A stretch of 64,000 bases of DNA from Acidobacteriota bacterium (lineage in GTDB: Bacteria; Acidobacteriota; Vicinamibacteria; Vicinamibacterales; SCN-69-37): NCBI GenBank assembly GCA_020853395.1, contig JADYYY010000019.1:186001-250000 (forward strand), written 5' to 3'. Made by a program: the position numbers and the translations under genes. The notes under the pieces are model-generated. The model saw only the letters and a program-made list of their open reading frames with translations. It was not told the origin of the DNA and ran no database searches. Shown here one piece after another: positions 15,901 through 48,235 of this stretch; the first letter of the stretch is position 1; each line of letters starts with the position of its first letter.

Positions 15901-16626
15901 ATGTCGGGCTCCCAGTACATCGCGCTGAGCGGCCTGCGCGCCCGCATCGACGAGCTCGACCGGCTCGCGGCCGACATCTCGAACGTCGGCACGGCCGGCT
16001 ACAAGGGCGAACGCGAAGCCCGGGCGGTGGCGCCGCGCGAGACGTTCGACGCCACGCTGCAGACGGCGATCGACACGACGTTCGGCGGACGCCGCCTGGA
16101 CATGACGTCCGGCAGCATCGCGACGACCGGCCGCGAGCTCGACGTCGCGGTCGAGGGCAAGGGGTTCTTCGCGATCAGCACGCCCGGCGGCACGCGCTAC
16201 ACGCGCAACGGGCATTTCGCGCTCAACGCCGAGCGGCAGCTCGTCACCGCCGACGGCGCGCTCGTGCAGGGAGCCGACGGCGCACCGATCACGCTGGGAT
16301 CAGGGGACGTGCGCATCGATCAGGACGGCAGCGTCTGGGCCGGCACCGCGCAGGCGGGCCGGATCGGCGTGTTCGAGTTCGCCGATCCACGCGGGCTCGT
16401 GATGGAGAGCGCGAGCCGCCTTCGCGCCGAGGGGCAAACGGCGACGCCAGCCGCGACGCCTCTCGTGCGGCCGGGCTCGCTCGAACAGTCGAACGTCTCG
16501 GTGGCGGCGCGGCTCGCGGAGCTCACGACCGTCTCGCGCGGGTTCGAGGCGCTCCAGCGCGCGATCTCCACGGTGATGAACGACGTCGACGGCCGCGCCA
16601 TCGAACACCTGGGCCGACGCGGATAG
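15901..16626 (+). CDS. flgF: FlgF, proximal rod protein
   Basis: FlgF is a rod subunit in the periplasm. The 241-residue protein has the rod N-terminal pattern (YIALSGLRARIDELDRLAADISNVGTAGYK, split here across the motif) and NGHFALNAERQLVTADG. The C-terminal helix contains EQSNVSVAARLAELTTVSRGFE. It is 20 residues or so shorter than FlgG and lies just upstream of it, as usual. The following 388 bp up to flgG are filled by tandem repeats, which is very unusual for these co-transcribed genes. Confidence 0.92.
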   Translation: MSGSQYIALSGLRARIDELDRLAADISNVGTAGYKGEREARAVAPRETFDATLQTAIDTTFGGRRLDMTSGSIATTGRELDVAVEGKGFFAISTPGGTRYTRNGHFALNAERQLVTADGALVQGADGAPITLGSGDVRIDQDGSVWAGTAQAGRIGVFEFADPRGLVMESASRLRAEGQTATPAATPLVRPGSLEQSNVSVAARLAELTTVSRGFEALQRAISTVMNDVDGRAIEHLGRRG

Positions 16627-17014
16627 CGCGGCGCGGTTGGGAAGTCCGAGGGCGACGCCCCTCGGGGAAGAAAGGCGGAGCGAGCGAGGGCACGAGCGAG
16701 CCGGCGTCGCGGCGCGGGGCGAGAGGGGCCCCCGTAAGCGACGCCGTAGGGGAGTCCGAGGGGCGACGCCCCTCGGGGAAGAAAGCCGGCGCGAGCGAGG
16801 GCACGAGCGAGCCGGCGTTGCGGCGCGGGGCGAGAGGGGCCCCCGCAAGCGACGCCGTAGGGGAGCCCGAGGGGCGACGCCCCTCGGAGAAGAAAGCGGA
16901 GCGAGCGAGGGCACGAGCGAGCCCGGCGTCGCGGCGCGGGGCGCAGGGGCCCCCGCAAGCGACGCCGTAGGGGAGTCCGAGGGGCGACGCCCCTCGGAGA
17001 AGAAAGAAGGCAAA
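16627..17014 (+). repeat. three tandem ~110-bp repeats plus a partial fourth unit between flgF and flgG
   Basis: This 388-bp stretch without a gene holds repeated units starting at about 16641, 16751, 16862 and 16972 (spacing 110, 111 and 110 bp); the last is partial and ends in the flgG leader. Each unit begins with a near-identical hairpin in which GAGGGGCG and CGCCCCTC flank a single A. It continues with a GAAGAAAG tract and a GC-rich body including GGGGCCCCCG. The first copy lacks one G in the hairpin. The units differ at only a few positions. All frames read through for long distances because of the composition, but none has a plausible start or family. The last unit carries the AGAAGG ribosome binding site of flgG. 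Confidence 0.9.
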
Positions 17015-17803
17015 ATGATCCGGGCACTCTACACGGCGGCGAGCGGCATGACCGCTCAGCAGACGAACATCGACAACGTCGCGCACAACCTGTCGAACGT
17101 CAACACCACCGGCTTCAAGAAAGCGCGCGTGGAGTTCGAGGATCTCGTCTACCAGGAAGTCCGCGGCGCCGGAGCCTCGGCATCGGCGACGACCGAGGCG
17201 CCGATCGGCATGGAGCTCGGGCTCGGCACGCGCGCGGTGGCGACCGCGCGCAACTTCGGCGCGGGCAACCTGCGATCGACGGGCGCGCCGCTCGATCTCG
17301 CGATCCAGGGCGACGGCTTCTTCAAAGTCTCGCTGCCGAACGGGACGACGGCCTACACGCGCGCCGGCACGTTCCACCTCGATGCCCAGGGCGCGATCGT
17401 CACGGCGGAGGGCTACCCGCTCGATCCGCAGATCAGCGTGCCGACCAACGCGACGTCCGTGAGCGTGTCGAAGGACGGCGTCGTGTCGGCGACGATTCCC
17501 GGGCAGGGCGCCGCGCAGCAGCTCGGCACGCTCGAAGTCGCAACCTTCCCGAACCAGGGCGGGCTCCGGCCGCTCGGCGGCAACCTGTTCGAGCCGACCA
17601 CGGCGTCGGGCGAAGCCGAGTCGGGCGCGCCCGGCACCGACGCGCGCGGCACGCTGGCGCAGGGCTTCCTCGAGGACTCGAACGTCAGCGTCGTCGAGGA
17701 GATGGTCAACATGATCATCGGCCAGCGCGCGTACGAGGCGAACTCGCGCGTCGTCAAGGCCGCCGACGAGATGCTGAGCCAGGTGAACAACCTGGTGCGA
17801 TGA
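17015..17803 (+). CDS. flgG: FlgG, distal rod protein
   Basis: FlgG forms the distal rod that crosses the P- and L-rings. I choose the ATG at 17015 because it follows AGAAGG and gives MIRALYTAASGMTAQQ, the invariant FlgG start; the frame stays open upstream through the repeats only because they lack stops. The 262-residue product has the family blocks NVAHNLSNVNTTGFK, GDGFFKVSLPNGTTAYTRAG and the C-terminal NMIIGQRAYEANSRVVKAADEML. The stop overlaps flgA by 4 bp. Confidence 0.97.
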   Translation: MIRALYTAASGMTAQQTNIDNVAHNLSNVNTTGFKKARVEFEDLVYQEVRGAGASASATTEAPIGMELGLGTRAVATARNFGAGNLRSTGAPLDLAIQGDGFFKVSLPNGTTAYTRAGTFHLDAQGAIVTAEGYPLDPQISVPTNATSVSVSKDGVVSATIPGQGAAQQLGTLEVATFPNQGGLRPLGGNLFEPTTASGEAESGAPGTDARGTLAQGFLEDSNVSVVEEMVNMIIGQRAYEANSRVVKAADEMLSQVNNLVR

Positions 17804-19162: not shown

Positions 19163-19261
19163 AGAGGCCATCTGAGAAGGGCAAAGGGCAGAGGGCAAAG
19201 GGCAAAGGTAAAGGGTGAAGGGAAGAGGAAGGGCGAAGGGAAAAGGGGAAAGGGGAAAGGG
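19163..19261 (+). repeat. purine-only GGGCAAA-type repeat tract before flgI
   Basis: From about 19175 to the flgI start the + strand is almost purely purine and is built of degenerate 6-7-bp units with G triplets (GGGCAAA, GGGTGAA, GGGAAA). Positions 19177-19208 are identical to 48170-48201. The 3' end provides the G-rich ribosome binding sequence of flgI. Regularly spaced G3 and G4 runs could fold as G-quadruplexes in DNA or mRNA; this is inference. Confidence 0.85.
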
Positions 19262-48169: not shown

Positions 48170-48235
48170 AAGGGCAAAGGGCAGAGGGCAAAGGGCAAAG
48201 GAAAGAGGGGAAAGGGAAAAGGGAAGGGGAAAGGG
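48170..48235 (+). repeat. second purine-only GGGCAAA-type repeat tract
   Basis: This tract lies between the divergent starts of the symporter gene (ends at 48151) and the gene at 48252. Its first 32 bp are identical to 19177-19208 before flgI; the remainder is a degenerate series of GGGAAA and GGGGAAA units. It presents many G-runs on the + strand and the corresponding C-runs in the symporter leader. Confidence 0.85.

Follow-up and report, generated by a model that had tools for sequence, protein, structure and literature searches.

Repeats of the REP type are described near the 3' ends of genes, where they are regarded as parasites at the DNA level. The GTAG and CGTC REPs lie, according to the sections of PMC3733652 drawn on here, close to the 3' ends of upstream genes and at varying distances from downstream ORFs, and for the CGTC type these sections give no known transposase. 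Bacterial stem-loop sequences, which are grouped by a shared predicted fold, have been collected into families in a survey that, as its summary states, spanned 40 genomes (PMC2267715). A hairpin between genes can also act in translation; in the phage T4 genes 38 and 25, folding is described in the relevant part of PMC3014915 as shortening the spacing between the Shine–Dalgarno (SD) sequence and AUG from 22 to 5 and from 27 to 11 nt, respectively.

Here we consider a tandem repeat array that separates the flagellar genes flgF and flgG in the genome of an Acidobacteriota bacterium (G000). The array lies within a window of 64,000 nt, by which we mean the whole stretch of DNA that was analysed. 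With considerable confidence, we regard it as the tandem expansion of an order-specific, dispersed and structured repeat that is under selection and was inserted in the flg spacer. A family with a compensated fold, lying mostly in sense orientation and often stopping short of the starts of core genes, would illustrate the way in which mRNA leaders can take up a selfish repeat, and genes found both with and without such a leader would constitute natural experiments in a little-studied phylum.

The array in the flgF-flgG spacer

The upstream gene flgF (15901-16626, plus strand; ORF and gene caller) has a C-terminus, ISTVMNDVDGRAIEHLGRRG followed by the stop codon, like that of its relatives and ends 1 nt ahead of the array. 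The downstream gene flgG (17015-17803, plus strand) starts with the ATG at 17015, as given by both the ORF and the gene caller, and shares 62-85% identity with its relatives. The 388 nt between the two genes consist almost entirely of repeat. Tandem Repeats Finder (TRF) reports an array at 16628-17006 with a period of 111, 3.4 copies, 93% matches and a score of 640, which far exceeds that of any other tandem array in the window; ungapped repeat spacings are 111, 111 and 110 nt.

The covariance model resolves three full units on the plus strand, at 16682-16780 (cmsearch, 81.5 bits), 16793-16891 (83.1 bits) and 16903-17001 (79.2 bits). They are preceded by a partial unit (16628-16674, plus strand) comprising the linker and an imperfect hairpin B only, delimited by the TRF array start, the mismatched hairpin and the repeat families D2/D3. 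In the first unit, the stem of hairpin A is formed by 16702-16710 with 16738-16746, followed by the linker TAGGGGAG and by hairpin B at 16756-16776; in the third unit, the hairpin A stem pairs 16924-16932 with 16959-16967. The 21-nt hairpin B sequence CCGAGGGGCGACGCCCCTCGG recurs at 16867-16887 in the second and at 16977-16997 in the third unit. Its 20-nt core has seven matches in the 64 kb, both strands counted, against 0.20 expected from shuffles. As RNA, the stretch 16628-17030 has a predicted fold 8.3 standard deviations below shuffles, and the third unit by itself (16904-17002) is predicted to fold with -63.7 kcal/mol (z -4.3).

The first-pass annotation had described three full units and a partial one with near-identical, perfect hairpins starting at 16641. 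This composition is borne out by both TRF and the covariance model, the partial unit being the leading one; near-identity likewise holds, while perfection applies to three of the four hairpins and fails for the leading partial copy (from 16646; 3 mismatches), and position 16641 lies in the array but slightly inside its true start at 16628. It had further assigned the flgG ribosome-binding site to the last unit, which is half right. The stretch 16998-17014 (plus strand) is made up of the repeat tail AGAAGAAAG and the unique sequence AAGGCAAA directly ahead of the ATG, so that the weak SD-like AAGAAGG (a 4-nt match to the SD consensus) spans the boundary between repeat and unique DNA. An intrinsic terminator was rejected, given that hairpin B in the window is followed by AGAAGAAAG, with no T-run.

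Two further arrays of a different kind were seen in the window, both built of purine-rich AAGGGCA-type heptamers. The one at 19177-19261 (12.7 copies, 81%) occupies most of the flgH-flgI spacer, and the second is situated at 48170-48235 (9.7 copies).

A lineage-specific family with a compensated fold

The genome search for other copies that the first-pass annotation had proposed was productive, with a model-based search yielding 12 full units at 7 loci of the own genome; diverged copies elsewhere in it were found by blastn with one array unit as query. Apart from the flg array, these copies are located at C19:324699-324864, C11:114449-114858 (an array), C11:21117, C4:46143, C15:58347 and C5:39584. 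Taking all seven loci together, units precede flgG, asd and genes for a manganese-catalase-like protein and an EamA-like transporter (names according to our reading of the sequences), fall between convergent genes at two places in C11, one of which is an array of at least four units, and occur once in C5.

On a wider scale, blastn (E<=0.01) detected the family in 26 of 60 genomes, a count that includes the own one, and the covariance model (E<=0.001) detected it in 20 of 80 genomes searched from the order. At least 46 matches were obtained in one genome of the order, where about 50 candidates were scored, so that per-genome counts are minimum values. In the genome collection, 116 stretches fit a degenerate pattern of the core; the 80 matches listed are all from Acidobacteria, gp6 and Vicinamibacteraceae records among them. 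Across the phylum sample, 3 of 149 genomes match, all from the own order and including the own genome, which is a weak negative at 27 candidates scored per genome. The model search left out L239-L254 (16 of the 116 pattern loci), and one copy tally leaves out L079, which is the same place as L322, adds two L072 units from the own-genome model search and omits six weak matches (L297 2219, L269 8838 and 7641, L321 5646, L324 2375, L308 2397).

No match to the repeat was obtained in the plasmid collection (blastn, "distant"), and a pattern search gave none in viral contigs. A known Rfam RNA family was rejected, the covariance-model search giving no match at E<=1 in window positions 16300-17300 and, at six further element loci, two weak microRNA matches only, far below threshold and off the element. 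CRISPR and integron attC sites were set aside on their general features. Within titles, abstract openings and selected passages, a literature search retrieved no published description of this repeat. It is a real, lineage-specific family of dispersed structured intergenic repeats, undescribed as far as this search reaches.

In a shared respiratory gene cluster, elements occupy matching sites in different genera, for instance before the same Mrp/ParA-like gene; the loci are L325 (G045:C20), L269 (G081:C22) and L297/L294 (G062). All four of the G045 matches fall inside this cluster, which suggests that the element spread along with it.

Each unit is a fixed-orientation cassette of about 100-110 nt with several helices; alignments show the order 5' arm, hairpin A, G-rich linker, GC-rich hairpin B and short, A/T-richer tail. 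The 5' arm occurs in two forms, a G.A-rich hairpin (GCGAACGAGCGNAGCGAGTGAGC) or a GC palindrome (GGCGCGC..GCGCGCC). The outer pairs of hairpin A vary freely but jointly (CGGCG/CGCCG, CGCGC/GCGCG, CTCAC/GTGAG, CGACG/CGTCG and others); the inner stem is GCGGGG/CCCCGC. In 58 of 79 aligned rows, GA faces GA as a tandem G.A step, which in the units of the window is replaced mostly by U-A and C-G. The G run of the linker is invariant in the first 16 aligned copies. At L142-L252, a second subtype carries an extra conserved stretch like TTTGTTCTCGTTGCCGTATAGCGGTCCTA or GCCGCATAACGGC upstream of the GC-palindrome arm, making this subtype longer and modular.

In a structure-blind MAFFT alignment of 16 copies, 8 of 25 pairs are changed on both sides, and the covariation score is reached in 0 of 500 shuffles. 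The model-fitted alignments, whose fit is biased towards the structure, show such changes at 21 of 23 pairs (79 copies) and 13 of 23 pairs (112 matches), and covariation collapses in slid controls. In well-paired columns, G.U outnumbers A.C by 10 to 5 and 15 to 1, and the tandem G.A pairs can be formed by the plus strand only; together, these two features point to the plus strand as the one that folds, be it as RNA or as single-stranded DNA. Since copies in the same genome share ancestry, neither the covariation nor the orientation counts given below are fully independent.

Placement and possible roles

Genes around the copies were called from codon usage, the caller having been trained on the flagellar genes of the window. 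In a first set of 105 clusters from 8 genomes, 97 lie outside called genes and 8 inside; between co-directional genes, 59 are in sense and 11 in antisense orientation (p 2e-9), with 14 between divergent and 11 between convergent genes and a neighbour missing in 2. In 8 of the 14 divergent spacers a start codon lies no more than 30 nt from the 3' end of the element, compared with 1 of 14 for the 5' end; in 10 of the 11 convergent ones the opposing stop is no further than 30 nt from the 3' end. The 3' end hence tends to meet the next gene end, whichever that is. A second set comprised the 84 of 112 matches reaching model position 97, reduced to 73 after the loss of 11 at contig edges and to 61 after removal of 12 shared with the first set; it contains 26 sense and 10 antisense copies (p 0.006), and the 3' end is within 8 nt of the opposing stop in 16 of 17 cases. 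A position test on the first 85 clusters returned p values of 0.005 (sense), 0.0009 (divergent), <0.0001 (convergent) and 0.29 (antisense); in this test the 5' arm is counted incompletely, which exaggerates the effect. The abutment of 3' ends is partly due to short spacers and partly to asymmetry. Purging of antisense copies could be part of the cause of the sense bias, without any function being involved.

For the 36 starts directly downstream of elements, an SD match of at least 4 nt was scored. None of the 19 starts with AUG within 5 nt of the model end has an SD, as against 13 of the 15 at 12 nt or more, which have their own, and 1 of 2 between 5 and 12 nt. In close copies, hairpin B ends about 6-9 nt ahead of AUG (junctions read by eye), and among the genes of this close class are conserved ones whose starts are clear, for example purM, nadA, dapA and ybaB (again by our reading of the sequences). 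At L031 (1600-1710), a hairpin of terminator type, followed by a T-run, lies just 5' of the asd element; in G002 and G006 a similar hairpin directly precedes the start of asd, an arrangement resembling an attenuator.

Several explanations have to be weighed against an inserted and expanded family repeat. GC-rich hairpins are error-prone in short-read assembly, and an assembly artefact, or an inert minisatellite confined to the flgF-flgG locus, might on this ground be considered; however, the array units differ among themselves (93% match), and diverged copies with the same fold occur at many loci in many genomes, which makes this explanation extremely improbable. The array is accordingly regarded as real. 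The first-pass annotation had offered a REP-like or selfish element and proposed a search for a REP-associated transposase. What stands of this is a dispersed, palindromic and mostly intergenic family, which in the broad sense of short palindromic repeats with many such copies is REP-like. The transposase was not found, as Y1_Tnp (PF01797) has no match in the own genome (99.92% complete) and none in G030 or G059, although these three genomes hold 12, 35 and 40 repeat matches, respectively; 5 of the 8 genomes searched do have matches. Eight Y1_Tnp loci in relatives lack a convincing flanking element (best match 17 bits, E 0.039). Membership in a RAYT/REPtron system was consequently rejected, and the repeat is termed REP-like rather than a demonstrated RAYT-type REP because a RAYT-type transposase gene was not found in the own genome. 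True RAYT-mobilised REPs, with a GTAG tag and hairpin B, in a BIME-like array would agree with the GTAG at the linker foot before hairpin B in the window and many other copies, and with an intergenic location near gene ends where termini supply stop codons, as the sections of PMC3733652 used here report for GTAG REPs. Yet the tag is not constant (GTCG, GTGG or others elsewhere), and the unit of about 100 nt with several helices contrasts with 20-40 bp; this origin appears quite unlikely. With a MITE of a known IS in view, element flanks were read by eye; in one subtype YTAG recurs at either end, and a clear target-site duplication was not seen. The searches revealed neither a transposase nor a target-site duplication nor a mobile source locus for the repeat.

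The two remaining explanations concern the transcript. A cis-acting site for mRNA processing or stability, through an RNase cut or 3'-end protection, might set the levels of flgF versus flgG mRNA (the first-pass annotation had raised a processing site next to a variable-number region that might tune rod-protein ratios); the sense orientation, the plus-strand fold and the occurrence inside gene pairs read as operons (flgF-flgG, aceE-aceF and perR-katG, named from their sequences) are in its favour, but the target genes have no pathway in common and copies also abut the 3' ends of opposing genes, so we consider it unlikely. Somewhat less doubtful, if still unlikely, is a mobile split ribosome-binding site, in which the linker GGGGRG would serve as SD and hairpin B would fold out the spacer to AUG, giving a transplantable translation leader. 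The SD counts for close and distant starts, the conserved genes of the close class, the invariant linker G run and the precedent of the T4 genes 38 and 25 (PMC3014915, in the part cited above) are consistent with it, as is the comparison of single genes, where the element-bearing purM (G062) and asd (own) have no SD while a local SD is present at purM of G076 and at asd of G002, G006, G015 and G017. Against it, close, far and other copies do not differ in the strength with which the linker is predicted to pair with the anti-SD (means of -9.9, -10.2 and -10.0 kcal/mol; the anti-SD GGATCACCTCCTTT was found exactly in G081 alone of 6 genomes and the 16S tail was assumed for the others), and insertion at that spot, with hairpin B in place of the SD, removes the SD trivially. 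The 3' end abuts opposing stop codons too, the SD is absent at purM in some relatives and from 128 of 222 baseline gene starts (94 have one), and flgG itself has its SD-like AAGAAGG past the hairpin. A native SD displaced to the 5' edge of close copies gave no signal (10 of 20 close copies; 7 of 17 and 12 of 38 for the two other classes). The most far-reaching version, a transposable-like RNA cassette whose hairpin-split ribosome-binding site replaces housekeeping SDs and rewires initiation lineage-wide, with the G.A/Watson-Crick helix under selection, is speculative and improbable in our estimation.

Origin of the array and relation to known systems

Twelve relatives with FlgG entered the spacer comparison, of which L257, L263, L264 and L267 give no spacer length. 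The computed flgF-flgG spacers of five relatives measure 53, 48, 33, 66 and 81 nt, that of G003 was read by eye as 71 nt, and those of G017 and G033 were seen without lengths being taken; the repeat is absent from all of them. Several relatives have a strong SD at flgG, e.g., AGGAGG. The expectation of the first-pass annotation that flgF and flgG are adjacent and co-translated is thus met for adjacency, while strict co-translation is not the local norm, because the relatives' genes are 33-81 nt apart, mostly with a good SD. One genome per species was compared.

In the preferred scenario, a dispersed repeat of about 100-110 nt, belonging to one Acidobacteriota order (Vicinamibacteria by the names of relatives), would have expanded locally in tandem to give the array; its copies probably spread between genes as non-autonomous elements. 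Selection would maintain the fold, keep copies mostly outside coding sequence and favour those running with transcription, and the copies may act as mRNA hairpins, in 5' leaders or between cistrons, or may be tolerated there; of this, fold and orientation are observed and the action is inferred. The insertion in the flg operon would have filled the native flgF-flgG spacer and replaced a strong native flgG SD by a weaker one consisting partly of repeat tail, and the present 3.4 units would then have arisen from this copy through replication slippage or unequal recombination. Flanks duplicated along with the repeat in G015 (the perR end), own C11 and G081 L273 show that a recombinational route to arrays exists. 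With such a series of stable hairpins in between, translation of flgG would probably no longer be coupled to that of flgF and would be weakened or insulated. As a separate observation, the end of a hypothetical gene (KVDDKGGVIS and stop) is found copied, along with the element, at a second locus (L074 1117-1330 and L072 1449-1930).

With regard to described systems, each compared through those parts of the sources that were consulted, the repeat resembles the enterobacterial MITE-like RU-1 to RU-3 (PMC2759123, PMC2229807) in being about 100-170 bp long, (nearly) non-coding, multi-copy and intergenic; it is set apart from them by description, no terminal inverted repeats having been noticed here. 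With the bacterial stem-loop sequence families (PMC2267715) it shares a predicted fold among repeated, mostly intergenic sequences. Like the split sites of the T4 genes 38 and 25 (PMC3014915), close copies place a hairpin between a possible SD and AUG, the folding of which would restore a normal distance; the T4 cases are experimental and concern single genes, whereas here a repeat family is involved and the arrangement is deduced from sequence. In genomic habit, the repeat resembles the GTAG and CGTC REPs as presented in PMC3733652, which are also dispersed palindromes, intergenic between co-directional and convergent genes, near gene ends with termini giving stop codons, and found in arrays. 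In contrast to these REPs, the present repeat is longer, possesses hairpin A, tandem G.A helices and strong co-variation, and lies mostly in sense orientation with its 3' end often set against the downstream gene.
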